Assembly (NCBI GenBank): GCA_903820035.1
Contig: CAIJFT010000133.1
Coordinates: forward strand, 1-39,569
DNA from: an uncultured Opitutia bacterium
Lineage (GTDB): Bacteria; Verrucomicrobiota; Verrucomicrobiia; Opitutales; Opitutaceae
Length of the DNA: 39,569 bases
Direction: 5' to 3'
A model generated the notes under the pieces. It saw only the letters and a list, made by a program, of their open reading frames with translations, ran no database searches and was not told the DNA's origin. Every line of letters begins with the position of its first letter. The stretch's first letter is position 1. The translations under genes were made by a program, and so were the position numbers. Positions 2,922 through 18,510 of this stretch are shown in pieces.

Positions 2922-3014
2922 GCGCCCGGCTGGTTGGCGTATTTTGTCCCGGTTCCCAGAATGGGGTTGGTTTTCAGGCCTGTTGCGCTAGACGTGGGAA
3001 CTCTCGTTCTCGCC

Positions 3015-4520
3015 ATGTCAAAATCGCATTCCGACATCGGACTCATTGGCCTCGCGGTCATGGGTCAAAACCTCGCGCTGAATATCGCCGACCACGGCTT
3101 CCAAATCTCGGTCTACAACCGCACGGTTGAGAAGACGGAGAAATTTGTGGCCGAAAACCCGAACACCCCGGGTGGCTTAATCGGGGCGAAAACCCTCCAG
3201 GAATTCGTCAAGTCCCTCGCGAAGCCCCGCAAGATGATCATCCTTGTCCAAGCCGGCAAGGCGACCGACGCGGTGATCGACAGCCTCGTGCCGCTGCTCG
3301 ATCCAAACGACATCGTCATCGACGGCGGCAACGCCCTCTGGACCGACACCATCCGCCGCGAAAAGGCGCTGAAGGAAAAAGGCCTCCGCTTCATCGGCTC
3401 CGGTGTTTCCGGCGGTGAAGAAGGGGCGCGTTTCGGCCCGGCCCTCATGCCGGGTGGCGATCCCGCCGCCTACAAGGAACTCGAGCCGATCTGGAATGCC
3501 GTCGCCGCCAAGGTCGATGCCAAGACGGGCGCGCAGCTCGGTGGCGCCGCCCCGGGCAAGCCGATCGTCGGGGGCGTGCCGTGCGCCGCCTACATCGGCG
3601 AAAATGGCGCCGGTCACTACGTGAAGATGTGCCACAATGGCATCGAGTATGGCGACATGCAGATGATCTGTGAGGCCTACGCGCTGATGCAGGGCCTCCT
3701 GAAGATGAAGGCCCCCGAGATGGGCGCCATCTTCTCCGAATGGAATCAGGGCATGCTCGGCAGCTTCCTCATCGAAATCACCGCCGACATCCTCAAACAG
3801 AAGGATCCGATGACGAAAAAGCCCATCGTCGATGTCATCCTCGACACCGCCGGCCAAAAGGGCACCGGCAAGTGGACGTCGGTCAACGCCCTCGACATGG
3901 GCGTCCCGGCTCCGACCATCGCCGAGTCTGTCTTTGCCCGCTGCCTTAGCGCCGTGAAGGAAGAGCGCGTCGCCGCGTCGAAGATCCTCAAGGGTCCCTC
4001 GAAGAAGTACAAGGGCTCCAAGAAGGCGCTCATCGCCGCCATCCACGACGCCCTCTACTGCTCCAAGATCTGCTCGTACGCCCAGGGCTTCCAACTGATG
4101 CGCGAGGCGCAAAAGGAATATAAGTGGAAACTCAACTTCGGTGAGATCGCCCAGATCTGGCGCGGCGGCTGTATCATCCGCGCGGTGTTCCTCCAGAAGA
4201 TCACCGAAGCCTACCAGCGCGACCCAAACCTCGCGAATCTCCTCCTCGATCCGTACTTCACCAAGACGGTCAAAAAGGCGCAGGAAAACTGGCGCAAGGT
4301 CGTCGCCCTCGCCGCGGAATGCGGCGTGGCCGCGCCCACGTTCGGTTCGGCGCTCGCCTACTACGACAGCTACCGTTCGGCCCGCCTCCCGGCGAATCTG
4401 CTCCAGGGTCAACGTGACTTCTTTGGCGCGCACACCTACGAGCGTACCGACAAGCCGCGCGGCCAGTTCTACCACATCGACTGGCCGGAGCCGTCCCGCC
4501 CGCAGCTGGAGATCAAGTAA
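3015..4520 (+). CDS. gnd: 6-phosphogluconate dehydrogenase, decarboxylating
   Basis: This enzyme oxidatively decarboxylates 6-phosphogluconate to ribulose-5-phosphate with NADP+ in the oxidative pentose phosphate pathway. The N-terminal Rossmann motif [18 protein letters not shown] starts near residue 12. It is followed by the substrate-binding [20 protein letters not shown] region, the catalytic [13 protein letters not shown] (Lys/His/Asn) and the [21 protein letters not shown] region typical of the all-helical domain. The protein is 501 residues from ATG 3015; usual members are about 470-480. Part of the excess is an insertion of roughly 15 residues ([15 protein letters not shown]) just before the [16 protein letters not shown] segment. 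An upstream TTG at 2934 keeps the frame open but precedes the family start. A strong terminator follows directly. Confidence 0.97.
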
Positions 4521-4527
4521 GTTTCCT

Positions 4528-4553
4528 AGGCCCGCTTCGGCGGGCCTTTTTTT
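4528..4553 (+). terminator. Rho-independent terminator of gnd
   Basis: Perfect 8-bp stem AGGCCCGC / GCGGGCCT (4528-4535 with 4540-4547) closed by a TTCG tetraloop and followed by seven T residues at 4547-4553. It starts 7 bases after the gnd stop codon, in the correct orientation to end the plus-strand transcript. Confidence 0.95.
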
Positions 4554-4577
4554 CGCCCGGAATTTCTCCACGGTACG

Positions 4578-4635
4578 CCCGGCCGTTGGCCGGGTCTAAC
4601 CGCGTCGGATTACACGAACCCGGCCAGCGGCCGGG
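4578..4635. repeat. Pair of near-identical GC palindromes
   Basis: Two palindromes with the same 7-bp arms lie in the convergent gap between gnd and the amidase gene: CCCGGCC-GTT-GGCCGGG at 4578-4594 and CCCGGCC-AGC-GGCCGGG at 4619-4635, with 24 bases between them. Neither has a T-run, so they are not simple terminators. A related CCGGGC-TATG-GCCCGG palindrome sits at 7183-7198 in another convergent gap. They may be intergenic REP-like units or RNA-processing hairpins; the window alone cannot decide. Confidence 0.6.
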
Positions 4636-4650
4636 CCTCCAGCAAACCCC

Positions 4651-5727
4651 TCACGGCGCGGCCGGGACCGCCGTCACGGGGGGCACCGGCTTGGCGTCCT
4701 GCGCGCCGGGCTTCAACTCGGGCAGGCCGAGCATCCGCCGCGCGCCGCCGATCACGCGGTCCCAGTCAAACGCCGGACCCGGATCGATCTTGTTCGTCTG
4801 CACGTGGAAGTGCCCGAGCACGCCGCCGTAGGCCTTCAGCGTTTCATCGGGCAGCTTCTTCATCACGAGCCTGCCGTCCGCCTCACGGGGATAGTCGCAG
4901 TTCATTTTGGGAAACACTTTGCAGAGGGCGGCGGTGAGCTTGGTGACCGCCGTGTATTGTTCCGGGGTCAGGTCATATTGTAGCAGGTGCGTGCCCTGAA
5001 CCTCGCCCGCAATCAGTTCGGGCCGCGCGGGGCGGCCGGTGAAGTTCTTCGTATAGATCATCGGATCACCGTAACGTTCCGGGACCCGGATGACCGGCTT
5101 GCCGTCCTGGTCTTTGGGATACCACTCGTCGAGCGTCTTGTGCGCGCCGGGCGGATAGGCGCCCATGTTGGCGATCTCGATGCCGATCGAACGCGTGTTC
5201 GAGGTGGTGGCGTGCCAGGTGCGCTCCTTGAGGTCGACCGTCTGATAAATCGTCCCGTCGATATCCAACATGAAGTGTACGCTCAGGCCGCGGAGGTCGT
5301 GGAGAATTTTGAAGCACTGCTTGCTGACGCCCGCGACGTCGTAGTGGATCACGAACTGATCCACGCTCCGCTGCAGGAGCGGCAGGTCCCAACCGCCGCC
5401 GCGCACGCGCTCGAATTCCTCGGGCGTCAGGCCGTCGGACCGCGGTCCGTAGCGGTTCGGCGAGCGGATATCCTTCACCGCCTCGCGGGTTTTTTCCCAA
5501 TTGCTGTCCGCCCACGGACTGAAACGGCGCTCGACGCGGTAGCCGTCGTAGCCACCGGCGTCCAGCCAGGTGACGACGCGCGTTCCCGTGTGAAACAACT
5601 GACCGGCGATGATGATCTCGTCTCCCTGCCGCGGTAAAAACGTGCGCGGCCGATGCAGGCAACCGGCGACCAGGCCGATAGTGGCGACGAGCAATACCGA
5701 CAGAGACCAGCGGGGGTGGATTTTCAT
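4651..5727 (-). CDS. Lipoprotein N-acetylmuramoyl-L-alanine amidase (Amidase_2 family)
   Basis: Predicted zinc amidase that cuts the bond between MurNAc and L-Ala in peptidoglycan or muropeptides. From ATG 5727 the 358-residue protein starts with a basic n-region, a hydrophobic stretch and a lipobox LVAGC (Cys23), so it should be a membrane-anchored lipoprotein. The Amidase_2/AmpD-like fold is visible. VIHYD gives the first zinc ligand His128, WHATTSNTRSIGIEIAN carries the conserved Glu184, and GHFHVQTNKIDPGPAFDW supplies His306 and Asp315, matching the AmpD GH...KxDPGPxFDW signature. The frame extends to a start at 5766, but the lipobox spacing favours 5727. It is divergent from the NamZ-like gene and convergent with gnd. 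An envelope location means it acts on intact wall or extracytoplasmic fragments rather than as a cytoplasmic AmpD. Confidence 0.88.
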   Translation of the reverse strand: MKIHPRWSLSVLLVATIGLVAGCLHRPRTFLPRQGDEIIIAGQLFHTGTRVVTWLDAGGYDGYRVERRFSPWADSNWEKTREAVKDIRSPNRYGPRSDGLTPEEFERVRGGGWDLPLLQRSVDQFVIHYDVAGVSKQCFKILHDLRGLSVHFMLDIDGTIYQTVDLKERTWHATTSNTRSIGIEIANMGAYPPGAHKTLDEWYPKDQDGKPVIRVPERYGDPMIYTKNFTGRPARPELIAGEVQGTHLLQYDLTPEQYTAVTKLTAALCKVFPKMNCDYPREADGRLVMKKLPDETLKAYGGVLGHFHVQTNKIDPGPAFDWDRVIGGARRMLGLPELKPGAQDAKPVPPVTAVPAAP

Positions 5728-5870
5728 GCAGGGTAAGGTCGGCTGATTCGAGTGCAGTCTCCGCATCGGCTCAACCGCGAACCGAGCGGCGTCTTTCCAG
5801 CCCGCCGCCCGCCATCGCGAAACCTCGAAACAGCTGGCTCCGCGGTTTTGCCGGCTTAATTTTTCAGTCC

Positions 5871-7103
5871 ATGAAGATCGCGTTTTTTGCGGTGTTGCTC
5901 GGTTTACTTTTTTCCGGGTGCGGTGCCGAACCGGTGGTGAAGTTGGGCAACGAGGTGCTCGCCGCCGGCGGTTTCAAGGAACTCGTGGGCAGGCGCGTTG
6001 GGCTCATCACCAATCCCTCCGGGGTGAACCGACGTCTGGAAACGACCATCGAAGTACTGCGCCGCGCCCCGGGCGTCACCTTGGTGGCCTTGTTCGGACC
6101 GGAGCACGGCATCTATGGCGATGTGCCGGCCGGTGACAAAGTCGAGAGCCGCGTGGATGTCCGCACCGGCCTGCCGGTACACTCGCTCTACGGCGCGACG
6201 CGCAAGCCGACGCCGAAGATGCTGCAGGGGCTCGACGCCGTCGTGTACGATTTGCAGGACACCGGCTGCCGCTCGTATACGTTTGTCAGCACGATGGGCA
6301 TGGCGATGGAAGCCTGCGCCGAGGCTGGCGTGGAGTTCGTCGTGCTTGACCGGCCTAACCCGCTCGGCGGGCTGCGCGTCGAGGGCCCTGGCGTGCAGCA
6401 GGACAAGTTTCGCTCCTTTGTAAGTCAGTGGGACGTGCCCTACGTCTACGGGCTGACCTGCGGCGAATTGGCGCGGATGATCAACGACCGCGGCTGGATC
6501 AAGAAACCCTGCAAACTTACCGTGGTGCCATTGCAGGGCTGGAAGCGGGTGATGGTGTGGGGCGACACCGGCCTGCCGTGGGTGCCGGCTTCTCCGCACA
6601 TTCCGCACGGAGATTCGCCATTGTTTCAGGCGGCAACCGGTATGCTGGGCGAGATCGGCGGCGTCAGTATCGGGGTTGGCTATACACTGCCGTTTCAGAC
6701 CATCGCCGCACCGAAAGTGGATCCGTATGCGTTGGCGGCGAGGTTGAACGGCTACGCGTTGCCCGGCGTTTTCTTCCGGCCGCTGACCTACAAGCCGTAT
6801 TATGCGACGTTCAAGGACGAGGTCATCGGCGGCGTGCAGGTCCACTTCACGGATTCCGCGGGCGCGCCGCTGACCGCGATCAACTACTACGCGCTGGAGG
6901 CGCTGCGGCAGGTGGCGGGCATCGACGTTTTTGCCGAAGCGGTGAAGGCGAACAAGAAGTTCGACATGTTCGACAAGGTGAATGGCACGGACGCTACGCG
7001 CCGCGCGCTTCAAGCTGGTCATCCGGCCGCCGCGATTGTCGGTGCTTGGCAAGCGGGTGAAGAAAAGTTCCGCCGCGAGCGGGCGAAGTACCTGCTGTAT
7101 TGA
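5871..7103 (+). CDS. namZ: NamZ-type exo-beta-N-acetylmuramidase, DUF1343/GH171 lipoprotein
   Basis: Member of the DUF1343 family, whose characterised representatives (NamZ of Bacillus subtilis and Tannerella) release non-reducing terminal MurNAc from peptidoglycan chains. The 410-residue protein has a short signal with lipobox LFSGC (Cys17), so it is a predicted lipoprotein. Conserved features are GLITNPSGVNRR near residues 44-55, LFGPEHGIYGD with Glu78 (GPEHG is the family hallmark and the proposed catalytic region), VVYDLQDTGCRSYTF, VLDRPNPLGG and GLTCGELARM. The NamZ call is by family; exact specificity is inferred. The start is the ATG at 5871, which gives the signal directly. It is divergent from the amidase lipoprotein gene, with 143 bases between them that could hold a shared promoter region. 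Confidence 0.88.
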   Translation: MKIAFFAVLLGLLFSGCGAEPVVKLGNEVLAAGGFKELVGRRVGLITNPSGVNRRLETTIEVLRRAPGVTLVALFGPEHGIYGDVPAGDKVESRVDVRTGLPVHSLYGATRKPTPKMLQGLDAVVYDLQDTGCRSYTFVSTMGMAMEACAEAGVEFVVLDRPNPLGGLRVEGPGVQQDKFRSFVSQWDVPYVYGLTCGELARMINDRGWIKKPCKLTVVPLQGWKRVMVWGDTGLPWVPASPHIPHGDSPLFQAATGMLGEIGGVSIGVGYTLPFQTIAAPKVDPYALAARLNGYALPGVFFRPLTYKPYYATFKDEVIGGVQVHFTDSAGAPLTAINYYALEALRQVAGIDVFAEAVKANKKFDMFDKVNGTDATRRALQAGHPAAAIVGAWQAGEEKFRRERAKYLLY

Positions 7104-7182
7104 GACGGCAGGACGAAAAGCCCGTGGCCTAGCGCGTGGGCGCCGAGACCAAGGCCCTCTGTAAATTCCCTGCGCTTACGCG

Positions 7183-7198
7183 CCGGGCTATGGCCCGG
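7183..7198. repeat. Palindrome in the convergent gap
   Basis: CCGGGC-TATG-GCCCGG, a perfect 6-bp stem with a 4-base loop, overlapping the stop codon (7188-7190) of the minus-strand gene. It lies between two convergent genes and resembles the two palindromes at 4578-4635. There is no T-run on either side, so a classical intrinsic terminator is not supported. Confidence 0.45.
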
Positions 7199-9056
7199 TT
7201 CCCCGGGAAAACGCGCCGAGGATTTCGCGGCCCAGGTCGCGATCATTGACGCCCAGCAGCGCATCCGGTTCGCCACCCTGAAGTAGCCGGCGCTCACCCT
7301 TCTCGACATCCGCTTCGATGCGCAGCGGGCCGGAAAGACCAGAGGCGCGGGCCTCGACGATATTACCGTGCATACGTACGGTGGCGCGGGCGGCGGAGAA
7401 TTTCTTCCGCCACGCGGAGAACGCGGTGTCTTCGAGGTTGTCCGTGGCCTGGACCCAAACCACGACCGTACCGCGTCCCGTGGGCTCCGAGGTGGAGTGC
7501 GAAATCGTGAGTCGATGGGCGACCGCCTTTCGGCCGTCGGCGATGTAGTGAATCGGGGCCGGGTCTCCGCTCGTCGTCGTTGCCAGCAGCACTCGCACGC
7601 CGAGTGCACCTGCGCCGAGACGAATAAAGAAAGGTTTTTCGCCGGGGATGACGGTTGGATTTTCGGCTGTGCCGGGCTTCGCGCGCTCATCTCCGAGCCA
7701 GACCTCGGTGTTCGCGGGCAGCGTGAGATGGGTCAGGAAACACGCGAGTTCCCCCGCGTTGTAGCGCGTCTTGGGTCCGAGGGGTTCAAGCGAGAGGACT
7801 TGGAGGACGTCCGGCCCGCGTTGCACGGTGGCGAGGAATGGAGTCAGATGCAGCGCCTTTGCTTGGTTGGCGGCATTGGCGATTTTATTCGTGCCGAACG
7901 GATCACCGCGACCGTCCATAAACAGAGTGAGTTGGGGTACGTCCGGTGAGTTGCCGAGATTGGCGACCAGAGTGCGCTCATCCGTTCCTCGTGAGCTGCC
8001 GGACGAGGCGATACTGACGTGACGGCCGATCCAGTTGACGGCCCGGTGCTCCGGCTCTCGGCCCCAGCGTTGGACGACGGTCCGGGGAATTTGGGTTCTA
8101 ATCGGCTCGGTCCATTCCGCCGGCGGTGGCATCGTTACGAGGTCGCGCAGCACGGTCTGGTTGTCGTGTGCGCCGCCGAGCCAGCCGGCGCCTTCTAACT
8201 CTGGTCGCGCCCGCAACCAGCCCGCGGTCCAGGTATGCGCCTCGAGATAGCCGCGGCCGTACAGGTAATCGTAGCTCCGGGCGTTGGCGCCACTGAGGCG
8301 GTCGCCCGGGGCCCACCAATTGGCCGCGATGTCGGCCCAGAGGTAGTGCATGGCGGTGGCGGCCTGCGCCCGGACTTCGGGCCGGCCGGCAAATCTTGCG
8401 AGCAACGCGAGAGAATCGAGGTCGACGCCATAGTAGGTGACCGCACCGTACTCGCCGATGCCGTGGCGCGCGGTGAATTCAAGCCAGCTTTGCCAGCGCG
8501 CGTAACCGTCGGATGCCACGTCCGGTTGCCCGAGCGCCTCACCGGTGGCGATCAGGCCCCATGCCTTCATCACAAAGATATTCGTGTACTCGACCTTCAC
8601 CTCGTGGCCCCGGAGCCCGGCGACGGCGTCGGTCAGCAGCGCCTCGAGCGTGGTGCGGGCGCTTGGCGTCAGCGTATCGGAGAATCGAAGACGCAAGAGT
8701 GCGGCCAACTGCACGGCGAATTCCACGCCGTTGCGGTCGAGTACAGACGGGTGGTCGCTGCGCCATTTGAAATTACCCCGGTTCAGGCTGCCGGGATCGA
8801 GATCCTGCATGGCGCGGGCGCGGGCGATCGCGGTTTCGACACGTTCGGGGTGCCAGCGCAGGCCCGAGGCCTCGAGGGCGAAGCGGAGTGTGCCGCGGAT
8901 GCCGAGGACTTGTTTGGCGTCAGCGATCGCAGGCCACTGGCGCTCGAGTTCGGCCGCGGCGCGGGCCGGGTCGCCGGTCCAAATGGGCGGCGCCGACCGC
9001 GCAGGACTCCCTAGGATGGACAGCAACGTAATGAAACCGATGAACGTACAGCGCAT
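7188..9056 (-). CDS. Secreted (alpha/alpha)-toroid-like protein, possible polysaccharide lyase or hydrolase
   Basis: A 622-residue protein with a clear Sec signal (MRCTFIGFITLLSILG followed by SPARSA) from ATG 9056. An upstream TTG-type extension to 9206 has no signal character. The N-terminal half is alpha-helical with repeated conserved aromatic/polar segments (EYTNIFVMKAWGLIATGE, GEYGAVTYYGVDLDSLALL, DRLSGANARSYDYLYGRG). I associate this pattern with uncharacterised toroid-fold proteins related in architecture to polysaccharide lyases. The C-terminal half looks beta-rich (about residues 330-600), as in lyase beta-sandwich domains. I cannot name a catalytic residue or substrate. Its place next to peptidoglycan-salvage genes suggests an amino-sugar glycan or cell-wall polymer, but this is inference. 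Termination is near the 7183-7198 palindrome. Confidence 0.6.
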   Translation of the reverse strand: MRCTFIGFITLLSILGSPARSAPPIWTGDPARAAAELERQWPAIADAKQVLGIRGTLRFALEASGLRWHPERVETAIARARAMQDLDPGSLNRGNFKWRSDHPSVLDRNGVEFAVQLAALLRLRFSDTLTPSARTTLEALLTDAVAGLRGHEVKVEYTNIFVMKAWGLIATGEALGQPDVASDGYARWQSWLEFTARHGIGEYGAVTYYGVDLDSLALLARFAGRPEVRAQAATAMHYLWADIAANWWAPGDRLSGANARSYDYLYGRGYLEAHTWTAGWLRARPELEGAGWLGGAHDNQTVLRDLVTMPPPAEWTEPIRTQIPRTVVQRWGREPEHRAVNWIGRHVSIASSGSSRGTDERTLVANLGNSPDVPQLTLFMDGRGDPFGTNKIANAANQAKALHLTPFLATVQRGPDVLQVLSLEPLGPKTRYNAGELACFLTHLTLPANTEVWLGDERAKPGTAENPTVIPGEKPFFIRLGAGALGVRVLLATTTSGDPAPIHYIADGRKAVAHRLTISHSTSEPTGRGTVVVWVQATDNLEDTAFSAWRKKFSAARATVRMHGNIVEARASGLSGPLRIEADVEKGERRLLQGGEPDALLGVNDRDLGREILGAFSRGTGP

Positions 9057-9253
9057 GGTCGTGGTTGGAGTCTCCCGCGGACCCACTCCGTGCGCAAGGG
9101 CCCGTGACGGATCCTGACAATCCCATAAAAAATATTTTGGCGCCGCGTTTGAGCCGGAAGGGAAAACGTCGGTGCGGCGGAGGAGCACGTTGGCGCTACG
9201 TTCCAACGCGGTTACGACTTAAGTTGAAACGGCTGAACAGGCGTTTGCCGGGA

Positions 9254-10540
9254 CTAATTGGCCGGAAGTTTCTTGCCGAATGCAGGATCGATCTTGAGGC
9301 GGCCGATGACGATAAAGGACGGAATTGTGCAGGCCAGCACCCAGGAGAAGAACTTCACGTAGCCGATGTGATCTTCAATCCAGCCGGCGGCCATACCTGG
9401 CAGCATCATCCCGAGGGCCATGAACCCGGTGCAGATAGCGTAGTGCGCGGTTTTGTGCGGACCATCGGCCACCATCATCATGTAGAGCATGTAGGCGGTG
9501 AAGCCGAAGCCGTAACCGAATTGTTCCACCGCCAGCGCCGAGCCGATGACCCAGAGGTTGCCTGGCTGGAAGATGGCGAGGAGAAGAAACGCTACAATCG
9601 GCGCGTGCATCGCGAAGATCATCGGCCAAACCAGCCGCCGCAGGCCATGGCGTGAAATGACCAAGCCGCCGGTGAGCCCGCCAATCGTGAGCGCGGCAAC
9701 GCCGACCGTGCCGTAAACGATACCCACCTGTTGGGTTGTGAGTCCGAGGCCGCCGGCCTCGCGCTTGTCGAGGAGGAAGGGGGAAAGCAGTTTCAGGGCC
9801 TGCGACTCGGCGAGCCGGTAGAGCAGGAGCATGGCGAGGACGGTGAAGATGTCGGGCTTGCGCAGAAAAGCAGCGAACACCGCAAAAAACTCGCGGGTGA
9901 GCTCCTGACCACCGGCCGTCGGTCGGTCTGACTCCGGCTTCGGCAACGCGAAGAAGTGATATGCGGCTACGGCGATAAACACCACGGCGAGAAGCCCGAA
10001 CACCAGCGACCATGCTTGGACAATGCTGCCGGTGGTCTCCTGCCAGCGCCCGGCAAGGTAAACCAGTCCGCCCTGGGCCGATAGACTGGCCAGGCGGTAG
10101 AACGTGCTACGGACGCCGACAAAGGCCGCCTGCTCGCCGTGTTTCATGGCGAGCAGATAAAAGCCGTCGGCTGCGATGTCGTGCGTGGCGGAGCTGAAGG
10201 CCATGAGCCAGAACACCGCGAGCGAGAGTTTGAAAACTCCCGGTCCCGGCAGCGTAAATGCCACGAGCGCGAACGCCAAGCCGATCACAAATTGTAACGT
10301 TACGATCCAGAGCCGCTTGGTGCTAAACAGATCGACCAGCGGCGACCAAAGCGGCTTGATGACCCAGGGCAGGTAGAGCCAGCTCGTGTAGAGCGCGATG
10401 TCGGTGTTGGAGATGCCAAGGTTTTTGTAGAGTACCGTCGAGAGCGTCATCACGACGACGTACGGGATGCCCTGGGCGAAATACAGCGAGGGGATCCACG
10501 CCCAGGGACTGCGGGTGCCGGCGCCGGGCGGGGGATTCAT
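9254..10540 (-). CDS. ampG: AmpG-like muropeptide MFS permease
   Basis: Predicted 12-TM major facilitator permease of 428 residues, the length of compact AmpG homologues. AmpG imports anhydromuropeptides or related disaccharide-peptides across the inner membrane. Family-like features are the N-terminal IPSLYFAQGIPYVVVMTLSTVL helix, the loop YLPWVIKPLWSPLVDLFSTKRLW (AmpG has FLWSPLMDR at this place), and ATHDIAADGFYL in helix 4-5 (AmpG: ASQDIVFDA) followed by a conserved Tyr-Arg-Leu segment (FYRLASLSAQGG). The ATG at 10540 lies one base after the nagZ stop, so the two are almost certainly translationally coupled. That coupling to NagZ is strong context for a muropeptide role rather than a generic sugar transporter. 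MurNAc or GlcNAc-MurNAc as substrate remains possible. Confidence 0.85.
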   Translation of the reverse strand: MNPPPGAGTRSPWAWIPSLYFAQGIPYVVVMTLSTVLYKNLGISNTDIALYTSWLYLPWVIKPLWSPLVDLFSTKRLWIVTLQFVIGLAFALVAFTLPGPGVFKLSLAVFWLMAFSSATHDIAADGFYLLAMKHGEQAAFVGVRSTFYRLASLSAQGGLVYLAGRWQETTGSIVQAWSLVFGLLAVVFIAVAAYHFFALPKPESDRPTAGGQELTREFFAVFAAFLRKPDIFTVLAMLLLYRLAESQALKLLSPFLLDKREAGGLGLTTQQVGIVYGTVGVAALTIGGLTGGLVISRHGLRRLVWPMIFAMHAPIVAFLLLAIFQPGNLWVIGSALAVEQFGYGFGFTAYMLYMMMVADGPHKTAHYAICTGFMALGMMLPGMAAGWIEDHIGYVKFFSWVLACTIPSFIVIGRLKIDPAFGKKLPAN

Positions 10541-10541
10541 A

Positions 10542-11600
10542 TTACGGAATCAGACCAGCTTGGCGTTTCAGGGCGAGCACGCGCCGGCAGGACTGATCGA
10601 TGCGTTCCTCCGAGATACGGCCCGACTCCACGGCGCGCACGAGAATGTCGCTCGCCTTCCGCGCGATGCCCGGATCGTAGCTGAGGTTGTTGCCAAAGCA
10701 GAGCACATCGAGGCCCGCCTCGATCGCGGCGGGTACGGATTTTTCCAGGCCGTAGCAGCTCGAGATCGCCTTCATCTCCATGTCGTCGCTGGAGATCACG
10801 CCGTCGAAGCCGAGCCGCTCCCGCAGGATGCCGGTGATCACGGCCCGCGAAAGTGTCGCGGGATGCGCCGGGTCGAGCTTTGCGTTGAAGACGTGCGCCG
10901 TCATGATCGCGTCGCAGTTGCCGGCGGCGATCAGGCGCTGAAAGGGAATCAGCTCCCGCTCGCTCCACGTCGACGTCACGTCGACGAGGCCAAGGTGAGT
11001 GTCGCCGGTGGCTGAGCCGTGTCCGGGAAAATGTTTCGCGCAGGTCAGAATGCGGTGGGCCCGGTGGGCGCGGACGAATTCCGCCGCGTGCCGCGCGACG
11101 GCTTCGGGGTCGGCGGAGAAGGACCGGCCTTTGCCCTTTATGATCGGATTGTCGGGGTGGGCGTCAAGGTCGACGACCGGCGCCAGATTGAGGTTGATCC
11201 CAAGTCCGGCGAGGGTCTGGGCGGTGGCGGCGGCGTGACGATAGGTGGCCGCGGGATCGTTGAGCCGGCCGAGTTCCTCGTGGGAAATGCTCTCGGGAAA
11301 GCCATAGACCGGTTTGAGCCGGTTCACCCGCCCACCCTCCTGATCGATCGATACGAGCAGCGGCACCGTCGCCTGTTGCTGTAGAAACGAAATCAAAGTC
11401 CTGACCTGCGCCGGCGACTCGATGTTGCGCCGATGGGTCGTCGCATCCGCCATCTCTTGGTCGAAGAGGATGACGCCCCCGAGATGCAGGTCGCGGAGGT
11501 CACGGGCGATCCGTGCGGATTCGGCGGGCGTACACCCGCGGAATCCAACATTGAGTAGCTGACCGATCTTTTCGCGCAGGGTTGAAGGCGCGGCGGGCAT
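10542..11600 (-). CDS. nagZ: Beta-N-acetylglucosaminidase NagZ (GH3)
   Basis: NagZ removes GlcNAc from GlcNAc-(anhydro)MurNAc muropeptides in the cytoplasm. The 352-residue single-domain GH3 protein has no signal peptide, as in Gram-negative NagZ. Visible motifs are VSIDQEGGRVNRL at about 83-95, the NagZ-specific KHFPGHGSATGDTH at 189-202 with the Asp200/His202 acid-base pair, and ISSDDMEMKAIS with the nucleophile Asp272. The start ATG (11598-11600) shares its A with the TGA stop of the upstream TonB-dependent receptor (TGATG), and the stop is one base before the ampG-like start. NagZ is therefore locked in translation order between an outer-membrane receptor and an inner-membrane permease. 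Confidence 0.94.
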   Translation of the reverse strand: MPAAPSTLREKIGQLLNVGFRGCTPAESARIARDLRDLHLGGVILFDQEMADATTHRRNIESPAQVRTLISFLQQQATVPLLVSIDQEGGRVNRLKPVYGFPESISHEELGRLNDPAATYRHAAATAQTLAGLGINLNLAPVVDLDAHPDNPIIKGKGRSFSADPEAVARHAAEFVRAHRAHRILTCAKHFPGHGSATGDTHLGLVDVTSTWSERELIPFQRLIAAGNCDAIMTAHVFNAKLDPAHPATLSRAVITGILRERLGFDGVISSDDMEMKAISSCYGLEKSVPAAIEAGLDVLCFGNNLSYDPGIARKASDILVRAVESGRISEERIDQSCRRVLALKRQAGLIP

Positions 11601-14600
11601 CAGAATTCAAATGAGTTGGTGATCGTCCACTTGTTTGGCTGCGGTATCCGGGCGCTGGCGACGGATCCGTTGGGTTGCGACGTGACGGCGATCAGATCTT
11701 TGCCCCCGAAGATATCGCGGACGTTGAGCTGGATTCGCCAGGTAATCCGGTCGTTCATCATTTTGCGCCCGTAGCGCAGCCAGCCGTCATAGTTGATTTC
11801 GTCGCTGCCGTAGTACGGCTTGGTGACATCGTACACCCAGGAGCCGGCGTCGTTCTTCTTCACCGGGAAACCGGTGGCGACGCGGTCTTGCCACCGCACC
11901 GCACCGCCGATGCTCCAGCCCTTGAGGCGGTCCGAGCGGAAATCATAATGGGTGACGGCGTTGAAGCGCCAGCGGCGCAGTTCCTGCACGGGCGAGCCGT
12001 CGGCGGCGAGGGCGTTCAAGTAGGGCACGTACATATTGATGATCGCCAGATTGCCGAGTTGGGAGGTGCCGAAGGCGCCGAAGTAGGTGATGTCCTCCAA
12101 GCCCTCCATTTCACGGATATTGGTCGCGAGCTTGCCGTTGCCGTCGGTCCACAGCGGTAGGTTGCGCTTGATAAATTCAGCGAAGTCCGCGCCGACGTTG
12201 GACTTCTTTGCTTCTTGGCGGGCCGCGTTGAAGGTGATGCGCCAGTTGCGCGTCGGGTTGTAGGTACCCTCGAACTCCCATCCTTCTGAAACGGTGTCGG
12301 CGATGTTGCCGACGTTTGGTGGACGGGTTGCGCTCCAGGTGCCGCCGTTGGCGGCTTGGGCGAAGTTCCAACTGCTGGCGAGCAGCGGATCGACCGGGCG
12401 CAGCCATTCTTCGCGGGTGCGTTGGGTGAACCACGCATTGCGGAAGGTGGTTTCGGCGGCGGTGAGGGCCGGGTTGAGGACGGCGGCCTGGGCGGGATTG
12501 GTCAGGCTCGCCCGCAGCGGGAGGTAGCGCGGATCATTCGGGCTGAAGCCGAACCACTTGTTGATGACGACTTCGTTGACGTTGGCCTGGCGCATGCCGT
12601 TCATGGCCCGGGTGACGTCATTGCCGGGCCAAAAAGTGTTGTAGAACGTCGCGTTGTCGTTCGCCTGCGTCGTGCGGTAGCGGTTCACGCGCAGAGTGAA
12701 TTTCTGGTCGAGGGCGGAGATCGTGAAACCGAGATCCTTGGTTTTGCCGGCGGGCGGGCTGAACGGCCGGCCGTAGACGTCGGCGATGGTGGACGACGGG
12801 CGGAAGTTCTTCGCTTGATTATACGAGAAGCTGAGATCGGTGCCGCGCGGGAGCAGGCGCTTCGCCCAATCCGGGGCGTGCAACACTCCGCTCCAGCTGA
12901 TGGTCGAGTCCTTGGCGTAAATGGTCGGGGTCGAGGGGAGCGTCCAGACGGGGTTGTAAGGATCGGTTTCGCCCGTGACCGAGGCCAGCCGTGCCGGGCC
13001 GGCGTCGCGGAGATCGAATTCGTCTTCGCGCCAACCGACCAGGCCGACGAGTTTATCGGAGAGGAGATAGCCCTGCCACACTGCGGACTTGCTCTTGGTG
13101 CGGTTGGAGTTTTTCGAGGCGCCCGAGTATAGCTTGCTGATGTCGCGTTCGCTCGCGGAGATGGTTGTGACGGGCACGCGGACCATTTGGTTGATGCGGG
13201 CGTCGAAGACGAGGGCGGTACCGGTTGCCTGCGGCGTATGGACAGCCGTGATACCCTGGATGTTGGCCCCGGCCGGTGAGCTCAGGTTCGCGAGGGAGGG
13301 CCCGAGGTAATGAATCGCGGCGTAGGCGGGATAGGTCGTGGCGGTCGGGTTGTTGGCGTAGGCGTTCAGGTCGAGTCCGTACGAGTAGCCGTTGATGCTG
13401 CGGTAGAAATTGTCGTTGCCCTGATCGGTGTAGGTGCCGGTGAAGACGTGCTTGCCGAGGTGGCGCAGCCAGCCCGCGTGGTTTTTCAGATCGAGGGTGG
13501 CGTAGGCGGTGGCCCGCTTGGCGTCCCGCTTGGTATCCACATAATTGTTGCCGATAGAGTCCGAGGCAACGTACGGGCGGCCGAAGTTGGGATTCGGCGC
13601 ACCGTCGACGAGCTTGCTGTTGACGTCGACGAAGATCGTGTAGGCGTCGTAGCCGAACATGCCGAAGTTGTCGCGGTTGTGGGTCTCCTGGTTGTAGGCC
13701 AATTCGAACCCGACGAGATCGCGGAAAAACGTCTGGCGGAAAGTTGCGCTCAAGGCGCGGAAGTCCGAGCGCTCTTGTTTATTGGGTCCGTCGAGAAGCG
13801 TGTTGTAGAAGTCGAAGACAGAGGGGTCGCGGAGTTCCTGATAGCGCCAGAGTCCGGTGTAGGATTGTCCGGCGGGGGCGAACTGTTGGTTCAGAAAGAA
13901 GCTCGGGCTGTTGCCTTGGGCGGTGTAGGCGCCAATGGCATACCATTGGGTGTAAGGTACGCCGCCGCGGCTGATCATGAATGGCGGGACGCCGTTGCCG
14001 CCTTGGACCGACGAAGCGGGGTCGGTGAAAACCGCGCCGACTTGGCCGAACCAGCGGCCGGTGGAGCCGAGATGGGCGAAGAGAAACGGGTTGCTTGTGA
14101 CCGCCGTGGGGTTGGTCGGATCAACGGAAATCTTGTTGAGCACGTTGTACCAGGCGGAAAGTCCGTCCTGCGGCGGCGTGGGACGCGGGCGGTTCGACTT
14201 GGTTTTGCCGTTTTCGAAACTGACTTGAAACTGGGTAAGGCCGTCTGTGATGAGCCGAGGTTCCCACTTGAGCGTGGTAAAGAGGCGCTGGTCATCCTCG
14301 AACGCCGGCTTTTGTTGGTATTTGTCCGCTTTGTTCAGAGCGACCACGCGGAGCGCCAACCGGCCTTTGGCGATCGCCTGGTTGACATCAACCATTTCGC
14401 GGTGGGAGTCGAACCGGCCGAAGGCTTGCTGATACGAGTAGGTATTCTTGGTTAGGTTTGCCGCCTTCAGTTGGTTGTTGATGATGCCGGCGGGGCTGCC
14501 GAGGCCGAAGAGGATGGCGTTCGCCCCGCGCGAGATGTCGACGCGCTCGGTGTTGTACGAATCCATCGGGATGTTCGTCAGAAAAAAATCCCTGGTAAGG

Positions 14601-15040
14601 TCCGCGCCGGCGAGGCCGCGTACCCGGGTGGAATTTTGCGGACTCTGGAGCGTAGACTCCGCGCTGGAGAATTTATTGCCCGTGTCGACGCCCGAGAAGT
14701 TGCCCTCGAAGCCGCCCGCCTCGGTGTTGGTGGTGTAGATGAGGATGTCACGCACGTTGGTCGATGCGGTGTCCGCCATGAACTGCGAGGTTACGACCGA
14801 GATGGCGGCGCCGACATCACGCAGGTCGGTCCGGAGGCGGGTGCCGGCGAGGGTCGAGGTGGCGGCGTATCCACGATCTTCTGACTCTTCGACCACAAAC
14901 GGAGTGAGCTTGACCGGTTCGTCGGCTGCGCGGTCGGGCAGGCCGGTGGATCGGCTAGGTGCGATTTGAGCGGTGACCGACGTTGCCAGCAGGGCGAGAA
15001 TGAGCAGCGAAACTTTGCGGAGCGAACAGGGGATTTGCAT
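11600..15040 (-). CDS. TonB-dependent outer-membrane receptor
   Basis: A 1146-residue TonB-dependent receptor starting at ATG 15040 with a Sec signal (MQIPCSLRKVSLLILALLA, cut near SVTA-Q). A frame extension to 15217 lacks signal features. The plug begins with KLTPFVVEES and STLAGTRLRTDLRD, then ISVVTSQFMADT, the RGLAGADLTRDFFLTN segment and the ERVDISRGANAILFGLGSPAGIIN plug motif. A long beta-barrel follows and the chain ends in NSFEF, with the terminal Phe expected for BAM-dependent insertion. The style matches the large receptor families of Opitutaceae. No SusD partner is visible. The ligand is not shown by the sequence, but overlap with nagZ and near-contact with ampG suggest peptidoglycan fragments or amino sugars. 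Confidence 0.93.
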   Translation of the reverse strand: MQIPCSLRKVSLLILALLATSVTAQIAPSRSTGLPDRAADEPVKLTPFVVEESEDRGYAATSTLAGTRLRTDLRDVGAAISVVTSQFMADTASTNVRDILIYTTNTEAGGFEGNFSGVDTGNKFSSAESTLQSPQNSTRVRGLAGADLTRDFFLTNIPMDSYNTERVDISRGANAILFGLGSPAGIINNQLKAANLTKNTYSYQQAFGRFDSHREMVDVNQAIAKGRLALRVVALNKADKYQQKPAFEDDQRLFTTLKWEPRLITDGLTQFQVSFENGKTKSNRPRPTPPQDGLSAWYNVLNKISVDPTNPTAVTSNPFLFAHLGSTGRWFGQVGAVFTDPASSVQGGNGVPPFMISRGGVPYTQWYAIGAYTAQGNSPSFFLNQQFAPAGQSYTGLWRYQELRDPSVFDFYNTLLDGPNKQERSDFRALSATFRQTFFRDLVGFELAYNQETHNRDNFGMFGYDAYTIFVDVNSKLVDGAPNPNFGRPYVASDSIGNNYVDTKRDAKRATAYATLDLKNHAGWLRHLGKHVFTGTYTDQGNDNFYRSINGYSYGLDLNAYANNPTATTYPAYAAIHYLGPSLANLSSPAGANIQGITAVHTPQATGTALVFDARINQMVRVPVTTISASERDISKLYSGASKNSNRTKSKSAVWQGYLLSDKLVGLVGWREDEFDLRDAGPARLASVTGETDPYNPVWTLPSTPTIYAKDSTISWSGVLHAPDWAKRLLPRGTDLSFSYNQAKNFRPSSTIADVYGRPFSPPAGKTKDLGFTISALDQKFTLRVNRYRTTQANDNATFYNTFWPGNDVTRAMNGMRQANVNEVVINKWFGFSPNDPRYLPLRASLTNPAQAAVLNPALTAAETTFRNAWFTQRTREEWLRPVDPLLASSWNFAQAANGGTWSATRPPNVGNIADTVSEGWEFEGTYNPTRNWRITFNAARQEAKKSNVGADFAEFIKRNLPLWTDGNGKLATNIREMEGLEDITYFGAFGTSQLGNLAIINMYVPYLNALAADGSPVQELRRWRFNAVTHYDFRSDRLKGWSIGGAVRWQDRVATGFPVKKNDAGSWVYDVTKPYYGSDEINYDGWLRYGRKMMNDRITWRIQLNVRDIFGGKDLIAVTSQPNGSVASARIPQPNKWTITNSFEF

Positions 15041-15158
15041 GGTAATACGGCGGTGGCTCGGTCCCCTGCTTGAGTGACCGTGGTCAGAATTTGCTAAGTG
15101 TGGCCGGCGGGTTTGGGTTTCGCTGCGATGAGGAACTCCAGCCACGGCTTGGGTGCGC

Positions 15159-15944
15159 TCAGGTGTGGCGCTGCCAGTCGAACTTGTGGCGATCGATCCA
15201 CCGGTAGTGGTCGGCATAGTGCAGACCGGCGGCGGAATTTTCGTCGAGGATCACGGTGGCGCGCGGATGCAGTTGCAGTGCGGATCCGGGGCAAATGGCA
15301 GCGAGCGGGCCTTCGACCATGTGTTCGACCGCGCGCACCTTGGCCGGACCGAAGGCGAGGAGCAGGCAACGGCGTGCCTCCAGGATGGTGCCGACGCCCA
15401 TCGTGATCGCGTGTTTGGGCATGGCGTCGAGTGAGCCGAAGACCTCGCTGTTATCTTTCAAGGTTTGTTCCGACAAGATCTTGATCCAGGTGCGGGAGCG
15501 AAGTGACCCGGTGGGTTCATTGAAACCGATATGGCCGTTGCGGCCGAGCCCGAGCAATTGGATGTCGATGCCACCGGCATCTGCGATTCGGGTCTCGTAC
15601 GATCGACATTCCGCATGGAGATCGGGGGCGATCCCATTGGGTACGTGGGTGCGGGAGAGGTCGATGTTGACGTGCTGGAAAAGGCTTTCCTGCATGAAAA
15701 GCCGGTACGACTGCGTGTGCGTCGGCGCCAACCCCACATATTCGTCGAGGTTGAAGGTCGTGATCCGGCTGAAATCGAGGCCCTCGTTCCGATGCATCCG
15801 AATCAGTTCTTGGTAGAGCCGGAGCGGGGTGCGGCCGGTCGCGAGTCCGAGGACGGCGTTCGGCTTTTCGCGGATGACGTTGGCGATTATCTTGGCGCCG
15901 AGAATGCAACCGATCTCGGCCGTATCACGAATGAGAACTTCCAT
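15159..15944 (-). CDS. nagB: Glucosamine-6-phosphate deaminase NagB
   Basis: NagB converts glucosamine-6-phosphate to fructose-6-phosphate and ammonia, sending amino sugars into glycolysis. The 261-residue length is standard. Motifs are LGLATGRTPLRLY (about 33-45), FNLDEYVGL with the catalytic Asp/Glu pair near 64-72, and LGLGRNGHIGFNEP near 131-144 with the catalytic Asn-His. TMGVGTIL follows near 181-188. It lies 118 bases upstream of the TonB-dependent receptor gene on the same strand and probably belongs to the same functional group, possibly the same transcript. No nagA is visible in the window. Confidence 0.96.
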   Translation of the reverse strand: MEVLIRDTAEIGCILGAKIIANVIREKPNAVLGLATGRTPLRLYQELIRMHRNEGLDFSRITTFNLDEYVGLAPTHTQSYRLFMQESLFQHVNIDLSRTHVPNGIAPDLHAECRSYETRIADAGGIDIQLLGLGRNGHIGFNEPTGSLRSRTWIKILSEQTLKDNSEVFGSLDAMPKHAITMGVGTILEARRCLLLAFGPAKVRAVEHMVEGPLAAICPGSALQLHPRATVILDENSAAGLHYADHYRWIDRHKFDWQRHT

Positions 15945-15962
15945 GGGGATAGATCAGGCTGG

Positions 15963-16115
15963 TTATTCGCCCGGGCGTTTCAATTCCCGAGTCGGACACG
16001 CACAGTTCCCGCCGCAGCCGTGACTACGGCGGCTGGCCATCGCGTGCCGAGTCAGCCCTAAAGCCGCCAATGCGACGATGATGAGGGCGGCGATGGTTTG
16101 GAATGCGGGAGACAA
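15963..16115 (-). CDS. FeoB-associated Cys-rich membrane protein (small)
   Basis: A 50-residue protein short enough to be missed by ordinary ORF cut-offs. It reads an N-terminal transmembrane helix (FQTIAALIIVALAALGL at about 6-22), a short basic stretch with SRRSH, and a Cys cluster CGGNCAC at residues 34-40. It ends at TAA 15963-15965. This one-helix plus Cys-rich tail layout, directly 3' of feoB, is that of the FeoB-associated Cys-rich membrane protein family, thought to assist ferrous iron transport. The only usable start in the frame is TTG at 16115; the same frame is closed upstream by the feoB stop 42 bases away. There is no good Shine-Dalgarno, so translation may depend on coupling to feoB. 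Confidence 0.72.
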   Translation of the reverse strand: MSPAFQTIAALIIVALAALGLTRHAMASRRSHGCGGNCACPTRELKRPGE

Positions 16116-16157
16116 GGGGGGAAACTTCGGCGAGCGTTGAGTGTTGGCCGGATCAGA

Positions 16158-18281
16158 TTAGCCGAAGCCCAGCGCTCGGCCAGTCTGGTAAACGAGGATG
16201 CAAACGAGCCACGCGGTTCCCGTAAGATACCCGATCTGAAAAAGAGGCCAACGCCACGAATTGGTTTCACGCCGCACCACAACGATTGTGCTGACGCACT
16301 GCATCGCAAATACGTAGAAGATCATGAGGGTGAAGCAGACCAACGGGGTAAATAGTTTCCTGCCATCCGGCCACTTCGCGGCCAATAAGGCCTGTCGGAG
16401 CGGAGTGGTGTTGTCCTTCGCCGACTCCACGTTGAATACGACGCCCATGGTTGAAACAAACACCTCGCGGGCGGCGAATGAGGTTATTAGTCCGATCCCA
16501 ATCTGCCAGTCGAAGCCCAAGGGTTTGATGGCGGGTTCCAAGGCGTGACCGGCGCGTCCGGCGAAGCTCTGCGCGAGTTGTTGTTGCTCGTTGGATCCGG
16601 CGGGTGCCTTGGGATAGGCGGTTAAGAACCAGAGGATGATGCTGATGCCTAGAATTACCGTTCCTGCGCGGCGCAGAAAAATCCAGGCTCGTTCAAACAT
16701 CTGTAGGGCGACATCCCGCAAGCCCGGCAAGCGGTACGGAGGCAGTTCCATGATCATCAGCGGCGGAGCGCCCTTGAGAAGCGTACGCTTGAAAAGCCAC
16801 GCAAAGGCGAATGCGCCGACGGTGCCCAAGGTATACATGAGCAACATCAGCCCGACTTTGCTCCATATCGGCACACTGTCGCCCGGCAGCAGCGCGGCGA
16901 TCATGAGCAAATAGACCGGTAGTCGAGCCGAGCAGCTCATCAGCGGGGCGACCATAATGGTTACGAGTCGGTCCTTGTGATCCTCGATGGTGCGGGTTGC
17001 CATGATCCCGGGAATTGCGCACGCGTAGGAGCTGAGCAGGGGAATGAAGCTCTTTCCGTTGAGGCCGACCCGGCTCATCAAGCGGTCCATAATAAAGGCT
17101 GCGCGTGCCATGTAGCCGGTACTTTCCAGCAGGCCGATGAAGAAAAACAGGATGAGGATTTGCGGCAGAAAAACCAGAACGCCGCCGACGCCGGCAATGG
17201 CGCCGTCGGTGATAAGGTCGCGTAGATCGCCCGGACTCATGGCGGCTTTCACCTGGTCGGACAGGGCGGCGATGTGGCCGTCGATGAAATTCATGGGGAA
17301 TTCCGCCAACGTGAAAATGCTCAGGAATAGAGCCGCCATTACGCCGCCGAGGGTCAGCCAACCCCACAGTGGATGAGTCACGATATCATCGATACGATCG
17401 GATGTGGACGGTCCCGGGGTATGACCGGCGGTTACCACCTCGGCCGCGATGGCACCGATCGCCTCATAGCGCGAGTTAACCAAGATACCGGCCCAGTCGG
17501 TCCCCTCCCCTTCCCAGCGGCGTTGCCAGATCGCCAGCGTTTCCGCCGTGCGTGCGCTCAGTGGTTTGGAGCCTGCGACGCGTAGGGAGTCTCGATCGGT
17601 CAGAAGCAAAAGGGCTTCTGCGCGGGCGATGAGAGGGGACTTGCCGTCGTTGGCGGTAAGGGACGCCTGCAACTCGGCGACGGCGGGAGCGATGGCCGCT
17701 GGAACGTCCCAAGCGTGCCGCGAAAGAGGCAGATCGGCGCGGCTCATGGCGAGCTTGAGGTCGATTACACCCCGACCGTTGACTGCTTCACAGGCGATTA
17801 CCGGGATGCCGAGTTCGGCTTCCAGCTTATCCAGCTTGATCTCGGCGCCGGCGGCAGCGGCGAGATCCATCATATTTAGGACTAGGATTACGGGCCGGCC
17901 GAGGTCGAGGATTTGGTGAACGAGATACAGGTTTCGTTCGAGATTGGTCGCATCGACCACACAGAGAATCCGGTCGGGCTGCGGCGTGTCCGCGCGACGC
18001 CCGAGGAGGACGTCGCGGGTGACCGCCTCGTCCGGAGAGCGTGCGGCCAGAGAATAAGAGCCTGGAAGATCCACCACGGTGATCGGTGTACCGTGTTGGG
18101 AATAAGCGGTGCCGATCTTTTTTTCGACGGTGACGCCGGGATAATTCCCGACCTTTTGCTTCAGACCAGTGAGTGCATTGAACAACGTGCTCTTACCGCA
18201 ATTGGGATTTCCGACGAGCGCGTAAACCGGGTTGCGGGTGGCGGAAGTCGAGTTGCTGGTGATATGCGGGGGCAGCAGCAT
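16158..18281 (-). CDS. feoB: Ferrous iron transporter FeoB
   Basis: FeoB is the inner-membrane Fe2+ uptake protein with a cytosolic GTPase domain. From ATG 18281 it has 707 residues. The G domain shows G1 GNPNCGKST at 24-32, the switch region VGNYPGVTVEKK, G3 DLPGSYSL and G4 NMMD, followed by the helical GDI domain. The C-terminal part has two Gate (nucleoside-recognition-like) repeats with many membrane helices, including the SYACAIPGIMATRTI segment, whose Cys is conserved in FeoB. The open frame extends to TTG 18302, but ATG 18281 is one base after the feoA stop (TGA-A-ATG) and gives coupled translation. It is downstream of two feoA genes and upstream of the Cys-rich small protein. Confidence 0.97.
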   Translation of the reverse strand: MLLPPHITSNSTSATRNPVYALVGNPNCGKSTLFNALTGLKQKVGNYPGVTVEKKIGTAYSQHGTPITVVDLPGSYSLAARSPDEAVTRDVLLGRRADTPQPDRILCVVDATNLERNLYLVHQILDLGRPVILVLNMMDLAAAAGAEIKLDKLEAELGIPVIACEAVNGRGVIDLKLAMSRADLPLSRHAWDVPAAIAPAVAELQASLTANDGKSPLIARAEALLLLTDRDSLRVAGSKPLSARTAETLAIWQRRWEGEGTDWAGILVNSRYEAIGAIAAEVVTAGHTPGPSTSDRIDDIVTHPLWGWLTLGGVMAALFLSIFTLAEFPMNFIDGHIAALSDQVKAAMSPGDLRDLITDGAIAGVGGVLVFLPQILILFFFIGLLESTGYMARAAFIMDRLMSRVGLNGKSFIPLLSSYACAIPGIMATRTIEDHKDRLVTIMVAPLMSCSARLPVYLLMIAALLPGDSVPIWSKVGLMLLMYTLGTVGAFAFAWLFKRTLLKGAPPLMIMELPPYRLPGLRDVALQMFERAWIFLRRAGTVILGISIILWFLTAYPKAPAGSNEQQQLAQSFAGRAGHALEPAIKPLGFDWQIGIGLITSFAAREVFVSTMGVVFNVESAKDNTTPLRQALLAAKWPDGRKLFTPLVCFTLMIFYVFAMQCVSTIVVVRRETNSWRWPLFQIGYLTGTAWLVCILVYQTGRALGFG

Positions 18282-18282
18282 T

Positions 18283-18510
18283 TCAGGGTACCGGATCAAC
18301 AAGGATGTGGTCTGCTTCCGTTTTGCGGATAGTCAGGTGGTAGCCGCGGAGCTTGATTTCGATTGGGTCGCCGAGTGGCGCGACGCGGATGAGGGAAAGC
18401 TTGGTTCCGGCCAATAACCCCATTTCTCGTAGGCGGATGTTGGCTGGGTCCGGGTTTGGTAACTCGCGGACGATGGCGTTAGTGCCGACCGGAAGTTCGG
18501 AGAGCTTCAT
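18283..18510 (-). CDS. feoA: FeoA domain protein (proximal to feoB)
   Basis: A 75-residue FeoA, an SH3-like beta-barrel that supports FeoB activity. The opening MKLSELPVGTNAIVREL, the central RLREMGLLAGTKLSLIRVAPLGDPIEIKLRGYHLTIRK and the end ADHILV are typical FeoA sequence. Its TGA is one base from the feoB ATG. It follows the other feoA gene by 21 bases on the same strand. Confidence 0.93.
   Translation of the reverse strand: MKLSELPVGTNAIVRELPNPDPANIRLREMGLLAGTKLSLIRVAPLGDPIEIKLRGYHLTIRKTEADHILVDPVP

Follow-up and report, generated by a model that had tools for sequence, protein, structure and literature searches.

A probable peptidoglycan-salvage cassette and the TonB-dependent receptor gene at its head in Opitutaceae

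Peptidoglycan recycling of the Escherichia coli type relies on AmpG, NagZ, AmpD/AmiD, AnmK, MurQ, NagA and NagB, and in the Pseudomonas type N-acetylmuramic acid (MurNAc) is recycled through AmgK/MurU. The gene ybbC we take to be namZ. In Tannerella forsythia, the available excerpts of two reports describe an ampG-ybbC-murTKQ operon for the scavenging of muropeptides and MurNAc, whose AmpG enables an E. coli mutant to take up the products of peptidoglycan recycling again (PMC5388701, PMC7670621). In Caulobacter crescentus, the accessible part of a further report describes N-acetylglucosamine (GlcNAc) clusters with the TonB receptor CCNA_00455, NagA2, a NagB homologue and a phosphotransferase system (PTS) permease (PMC13046382). 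Here we analysed a window of 39,569 bp from an uncultured Opitutia bacterium of the family Opitutaceae, which is the entire contig C133 of a 6.05-Mb draft genome (G000, rated 98% complete). An earlier sequence-only reading of this window had named an amidase, NamZ, an AmpG-like permease, NagZ, NagB and a TonB-dependent receptor (TBDR) in one locus, all of which were confirmed by Pfam, NCBIfam and PDB matches (Table 1).

We found that the cassette very probably serves the salvage of peptidoglycan fragments, as that reading had proposed, since nagZ recurs in the family with the amidase, ampG, dgcA or murQ, and this type of AmpG is encoded near MurQ and NamZ. The combination of nagZ-ampG with an amidase is thus a salvage cassette of an already known kind. 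For the locus as a whole we favour, with a probability of roughly 0.5, a peptidoglycan salvage cassette at whose head a lineage-specific receptor has docked. The receptor would be a genus-level transporter with its own ligand, most likely an oligosaccharide, that came to stand next to the cassette; it may carry peptidoglycan fragments as well, although its retention would not require them.

The locus resembles each of the described systems in part. As in the T. forsythia operon, its AmpG permease gene is accompanied by a NamZ gene (ybbC there); in the excerpts available, T. forsythia is described as MurNAc-auxotrophic with MurT, MurK and MurQ present, whereas no MurQ was found in G000. The window locus has NagZ, an amidase and a receptor, and the term "TonB" occurs nowhere in PMC5388701 or PMC7670621. 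Like E. coli-type recycling, the genome of the window encodes an AmpG-like permease, NagZ, an AmiD-like lipoprotein amidase, NagB and a NagA-like protein; unlike it, AnmK and MurQ were not found in G000, and NamZ and the receptor are extra. With C. crescentus it shares a TonB receptor encoded with nag genes and a beta-N-acetylglucosaminidase/hexosaminidase, the ligand there being an amino sugar, whereas the C. crescentus cluster has a PTS permease, and neither AmpG nor NamZ is named in the accessible part of that source (PMC13046382). Among the open-licence papers listed in our searches, no title or opening of an abstract describes a verrucomicrobial TonB receptor that takes peptidoglycan fragments.

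The cassette in the genus, the family and beyond

We compared 57 relatives, 27 of them belonging to the genus of the window, G000 included. The genus genomes are drafts of 70-100% completeness, and neighbourhoods were mapped by tblastn and a heuristic codon-score gene caller. NagZ orthologues (at least 72% identity; a 48% match in G045 was left out) are found in 12/57 relatives, all in the genus. AmpG orthologues (at least 52%; a fragment at 42% and all matches up to 41% were left out) are found in 16/57, of which 13 are in the genus, including all 12 NagZ-bearing genomes.

Upon extending the search to 252 genomes of the family (E-value 1e-60 or better), we observe NagZ orthologues in 59, with 47 of them outside the genus. 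At these 47 loci, counted at 45% identity or more and on contigs many of which end early, we find the amidase at 34, a DgcA-type epimerase at 33, AmpG at 29, a GHL10 protein at 23, MurQ at 20 and NamZ at 2, with MurQ present at 19 of the 27 loci that have at least 6.5 kb of downstream sequence. GHL10 domains are known from the glycan hydrolase DigH. The common form of the locus outside the genus is dgcA-nagZ-amidase and ampG-GHL10-murQ. Its nagZ, amidase and ampG are orthologous to those of the window, whereas most loci of the window's genus have namZ and some also have the receptor. Of the other 11 NagZ-bearing genomes of the genus, only G022 has MurQ, DgcA or GHL10 at the locus; in this genome (L087) AnmK, MurQ, GHL10, AmpG, the amidase, NamZ, a DgcA-type epimerase and NagZ all stand together. 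The codon-score caller missed the MurQ of G022, which the family search found. In the genus g47, nagZ-ampG is present in 7/9 genomes, the contigs ending in the other two, without the receptor; a 447-aa oxidoreductase-like gene, named from its first residues only, lies directly upstream in 7/9. FeoB is also encoded near dgcA-nagZ in four g44 genomes, an indication that the cassette has long had a place on the feoB side.

We also used an AmpG alignment to scan genomes of bacteria and archaea, retaining the best 80 of at least 570 hits and counting neighbours within the fetched flanks. A MurQ relative lies within 10 kb in 42 of these best 80 loci, GHL10 in 38, NamZ in 15 and NagZ in 10 (four at 76-79% identity, six at 31-33%). 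Nine loci of Bacteroidota have AmpG-NamZ followed by a MurQ relative 2.1-2.8 kb further on, with AmpG 58-60% and NamZ 51-54% identical to the proteins of the window. Their AmpG-NamZ-MurQ arrangement fits the T. forsythia order given in the excerpts of PMC5388701 and PMC7670621.

Taken as a pathway, the cassette would work as follows. The lipoprotein amidase would strip stem peptides off MurNAc in the envelope, NamZ would remove MurNAc from non-reducing ends, and AmpG would carry GlcNAc-(anhydro)MurNAc fragments into the cytoplasm. There NagZ would free GlcNAc, which could reach fructose-6-phosphate via a kinase, the NagA-like deacetylase and NagB, or be re-activated via a sugar-1-kinase. The substrates, the direction of flow and the localisation of these steps are predicted from gene content.

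Linkage of the receptor to the cassette

The receptor is distributed more widely than the cassette. Orthologues, defined by at least 64% identity over a long stretch (other listed matches reach at most 49%), occur in 21/57 relatives including the window (64-84% in 20/56 others), 19 of them in the genus (19/27); receptors in pieces at contig ends (G009, G013, G020, G026) were counted as present. Nine genus genomes carry the receptor without NagZ and AmpG orthologues (G007, G009, G013, G014, G016, G019, G021, G024, G025); they are 70-97% complete, and G025 has AmpG-like matches of 32-34%. An obligate tie between the receptor and peptidoglycan was rejected on this ground. Among NagZ-bearing genus genomes, the receptor is inside the cassette in 6/12 (6/27 of the genus), outside it in 4/12 (G003, G012, G023, G026) and was not found in 2/12 (G001, G022). 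It stands directly before nagZ in five (G000, G006, G008, G017, G020), and in G015 other genes lie between. Beyond the genus, the receptor (at 55% identity or more) is at 0/47 NagZ loci, including 0/38 with at least 4 kb of upstream sequence, a count that covers the loci only. A single receptor of the window's type was found in the best 80 AmpG loci, in the already known G015 record; the profile used combined 9 Opitutaceae receptors, as 4 of the 13 named seeds, the window's own included, had no readable frame, and was no test for SusC-type receptors. A protein search of plasmids with the receptor gave 97 records, and the ten listed matches are all partial and below 28% identity.

The sequence-only reading had gone further and assigned the receptor to a dedicated, SusD-less TonB-driven peptidoglycan utilization locus, bringing in muropeptides or pieces of glycan, foreign or shed, as a food source. 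We consider this unlikely, although several observations speak for it. The block TBDR-nagZ-ampG-namZ-amidase is together in G000 (with an orphan gene added) and in G006, G008, G017 and G020 (interrupted in G015), the receptor stop and the nagZ start have one base in common in the window, and the receptor is present somewhere in 10/12 NagZ-bearing genus genomes. Furthermore, in G006 and G008 the block is at a second genomic place, beside an extracytoplasmic function (ECF) sigma factor and ABC transporter genes. The receptors of these two genomes are close together on the receptor tree, and this amounts to one event, with the block showing up as a unit. On the tree of 21 receptors, the cassette-linked label needs three changes against a shuffled mean of 5.4, with 10/500 shuffles as low. 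However, the linked receptors form one clade in 0% of 200 bootstrap trees, a pattern that fits an old linkage with losses or repeated linkage and not a cassette-specific type of receptor. Likewise, co-occurrence of receptor and NagZ is not significant (10/12 with NagZ versus 9/15 without; Fisher p = 0.24), the stop/start overlap is confined to the window while the four other direct pairs are gapped, the NamZ lipobox is not conserved, and the nine receptor-only genomes and the absence from NagZ loci of other genera point the same way. The receptor-nagZ-ampG order, which that reading had offered as a check, thus held in half of the NagZ-bearing genus genomes and at the second place in G006 and G008, and was seen at no NagZ locus of other genera.

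The opposite explanation takes the receptor for a passenger whose ligand is unrelated, and its adjacency for an inherited gene order beside feoB with no functional meaning. The order feoB-nagB, cassette, gnd is found in G000, G015, G017 and G020 (in G020 it spans a contig break inside the receptor, and in G015 the far end was read from L135, a named copy of its contig C424), so that shared gene order alone, flanking feoB, nagB and gnd being syntenic as well, could explain the linkage there. Unlinked receptors have mixed neighbours that do not indicate one ligand: a DEAD-box helicase and a GSDH-type dehydrogenase in five genomes (G007, G009, G014, G019, G021; a PRK-type kinase in three of them), a sulfatase (G003), an ADP-ribosylglycohydrolase (G023), a peptidase M20 (G024), the sigma factor and ABC genes of G006/G008 without the cassette (G025), an AraC-type regulator with a sugar-binding domain (G029), and a LacI regulator with altronate dehydratase (G032). 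These neighbour families were scanned on one representative per cluster. Additionally, a first look at G000 gave 126 receptor-like candidate stretches, of which 12 were scored (up to 370 in a relative, again with 12 scored); the receptor family in these genomes is very large, and a receptor as a neighbour is therefore not rare. Nonetheless, with the receptor-cassette block also away from the feoB place in G006 and G008 and one base shared by stop and start in the window, a meaningless adjacency seems rather improbable to us.

Several points also weigh against the reading that we favour, a salvage cassette with a lineage-specific receptor docked beside it. A sugar as the receptor's cargo is suggested by the size of the receptor and a few neighbours, whereas its best named matches are plug-domain matches to siderophore receptors. 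Since the genomes are drafts, 70-100% complete, some absences may be gaps. Finally, in G014 the unlinked receptor is followed, after about 1.3 kb, by a GHL10 protein with 41-45% identity to the one in G022 (L105:8710-11088 (+)). This is a possible link to peptidoglycan without the cassette, which would also suit a dedicated locus, and it is seen at 1/15 unlinked-receptor loci, four of which are on short contigs or at contig ends.

Genes of the window and their products

Gene families were assigned by Pfam and NCBIfam models and by matches to PDB sequences (Table 1).

Table 1. Features of the locus, its flanks and the fusion gene of two relatives
Feature	Position	Strand	Evidence
6-phosphogluconate dehydrogenase, gnd (flank)	2994..4520	+	PRK09287 725 bits
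N-acetylmuramoyl-L-alanine amidase, lipoprotein, AmpDh2/AmiD-like	4651..5727	-	Amidase_2 4.9e-20, 72.6 bits; lipobox VAGC
NamZ exo-beta-N-acetylmuramidase	5871..7103	+	NamZ_N 4.2e-81, NamZ_C 1.5e-35; lipobox FSGC
P0003, secreted orphan protein, 622 aa	7188..9056	-	no Pfam/NCBIfam/PDB match
AmpG-like muropeptide permease	9254..10540	-	TIGR00901 5.9e-52, below cut-off; PDB AmpG structures 5.8e-24
NagZ, GH3 beta-N-acetylglucosaminidase	10542..11600	-	Glyco_hydro_3 1.1e-72; PDB GH3 NAGase 1.2e-61; motifs
TonB-dependent receptor (TBDR), 1146 aa, plug domain + large barrel	11600..15040	-	Plug 1.1e-06
NagB glucosamine-6-phosphate deaminase	15159..15944	-	TIGR00502 288.9 bits, above cut-off 236.9
FeoB (flank)	16158..18281	-	TIGR00437 1.9e-155
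Fusion protein ~985 aa	L110:12060-15011; L086:2519-5482	+; -	GlmU-like nucleotidyltransferase + GHMP kinase

The receptor stop and nagZ start overlap as TGATG, and one base separates the nagZ stop from the ampG start (TAATATG). Given that namZ is read from the + strand and the gene of the amidase from the - strand, neither would be in one transcript with TBDR-nagZ-ampG. Promoter (4 versus 2.1 in shuffles) and terminator (9 versus 11.6) scans were uninformative.

The receptor most likely starts at 15040, as indicated by codon score and by orthologue matches, which, where they reach the N-terminus, mostly begin at residues 48-83 of the 1205-aa frame; two matches start further ahead, at residues 39 and 5. 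Its Pfam match is limited to the TonB plug domain (29.6 bits), and its PDB matches, at 1.7e-09, cover the plug region only. No SusD family match, and hence no SusC-SusD pair, was seen in a Pfam scan of the nine proteins at 2934-18302, in agreement with the sequence-only reading.

The amidase gene probably starts at 5727 by codon score; its product matches solved AmpDh2 weakly (4.2e-06 in the PDB sequence search) and, with an Amidase_2 domain on a predicted lipoprotein, is probably of the AmiD/AmpDh2 type. NamZ, whose family label we take to be GH171, is identified by its two domains and a near full-length match (NamZ_N 271.6 bits, NamZ_C 123.7 bits; residues 23-410 match PDB 4k05 at 2e-127), and it carries a GPEHG motif at residue 76. 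That both hydrolases are lipoproteins holds for the window. A pattern search found the amidase lipobox in 40/42 relatives with a readable N-terminus; that of NamZ is in 2/9 genus sequences, the window and G022 (G026 is a fragment), and was not seen in G006, G008, G012, G015, G017, G020 and G023, nor in two g47 genomes, so that the lipoprotein state is not a fixed feature of NamZ.

The AmpG-like permease scores 176.7 bits with TIGR00901 against a curated cut-off of 350 and matches four solved AmpG/muropeptide-transporter sequences, which shows a sequence relation to AmpG. A mid-protein insert of about 190 residues, not strongly hydrophobic, was noted in AmpG of G003, G006, G017 and G020 (L109:13320-15194 (+)). 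NagZ has a GH3 domain of 245.6 bits and scores 187.7 with the NagZ model PRK05337 (cut-off 207). It shows no signal peptide by eye and carries the motifs KHFPGHG, DTH and SDDM, whose roles we presume, and we assign it to NagZ.

The secreted orphan gene, which the sequence-only reading had left out, was equally without a match when a 5-sequence profile of P0003 was compared with the PDB and when ten close and distant relatives were scanned with Pfam; 132 pattern matches in viral contigs included no relative. Orthologues at 55-60% are in G008 and G023, both outside the cassette, and distant relatives (32%) in G025 and G054; in relatives, P0003 is not part of the cassette. A single-sequence AlphaFold2 model (mean predicted local distance difference test, pLDDT, 35.1) was not used.

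In G001, G015, G017 and G020, a lactate-type major facilitator superfamily transporter gene, below its NCBIfam cut-off, separates nagB from the receptor or fusion gene (L109:7303-8574 (-)); the window has none at this spot. MurNAc etherase chemistry sets lactate free; these four genomes show no MurQ.

Fate of the amino sugars

The window lacks MurQ, AnmK and NagA, as had been stated. Elsewhere in G000 we found a NagA-like gene (203.6 bits against a cut-off of 225.65) and neither of the others: the best match to the MurQ model TIGR00274 is a 213-aa frame of 19.7 bits (cut-off 302), and AnmK gave no match. The AnmK and MurQ pair of E. coli-type MurNAc recycling is thus not found in G000, where MurNAc is seemingly not routed through MurQ. 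Strong MurQ matches are present in 2/57 relatives, G022 and G051, the former being the sole MurQ of the window's genus, in which AnmK is in G011 and G022.

A different set of sugar-activating genes is present. At L225:7111-9952 (+) of G000, a nucleotidyltransferase, a NahK-like N-acetylhexosamine 1-kinase (PDB match 9.7e-77) and a PIG-L-type deacetylase have overlapping ends and form an apparent operon. The kinase (L225:7983-9095) is the strong one of two APH-family matches in the genome, and the same contig encodes a BadF-type kinase beside a SIS-domain protein. A receptor-like gene, recognised by eye, lies shortly downstream of this run.

In G015 and G001, a nucleotidyltransferase-GHMP kinase fusion of 983-987 aa overlaps nagZ by 4 nt. 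Of its parts, the first comes closest to GlmU (NCBIfam 4.8e-31, PDB 8.1e-22) and the middle is a GHMP kinase domain (1.8e-11), which makes it a candidate anomeric amino-sugar kinase/uridylyltransferase, with MurNAc as one possible substrate among others. Full-length relatives are in 7/57 genomes, all in the genus (7/27), and two more have weak matches to the kinase part only. G009, G013, G018 and G025 bear the fusion without a NagZ orthologue, and in G023 it lies away from nagZ, which counters a fixed role in peptidoglycan salvage; in G013 it is on a contig with the C-terminal half of the receptor. A model folded from two sequences (mean pLDDT 32.6) was not used. No title or opening of an abstract among the open-licence papers listed describes such a fusion in peptidoglycan salvage.

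G000 is like the Pseudomonas type in having no MurQ and in having a sugar-1-kinase of the NahK type with a nucleotidyltransferase, as are two relatives with the kinase-nucleotidyltransferase fusion beside nagZ; the kinases found here are NahK-type or GHMP-type, and the likeness is one of gene type. One could combine these observations into a single scheme, in which one genus has added a TonB-driven, SusD-less receptor to an AmpG-NagZ-NamZ-amidase cassette for peptidoglycan fragments and would re-use MurNAc independently of MurQ and AnmK. The sugar would be phosphorylated at its anomeric position and activated with UTP, either by the NahK-type kinase and separate nucleotidyltransferase of G000 or by the GlmU-like fusion before nagZ in two relatives. 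As a whole, we regard this scheme as highly doubtful.

If the receptor does carry peptidoglycan fragments, it would provide them with an active route across the outer membrane outside the SusCD type, and shed cell wall would become a shared nutrient traceable by one gene. Quite apart from the receptor, the Opitutaceae offer a natural series for testing what becomes of MurNAc, comprising a murQ type, a murQ-less type and a type with the fusion before nagZ.

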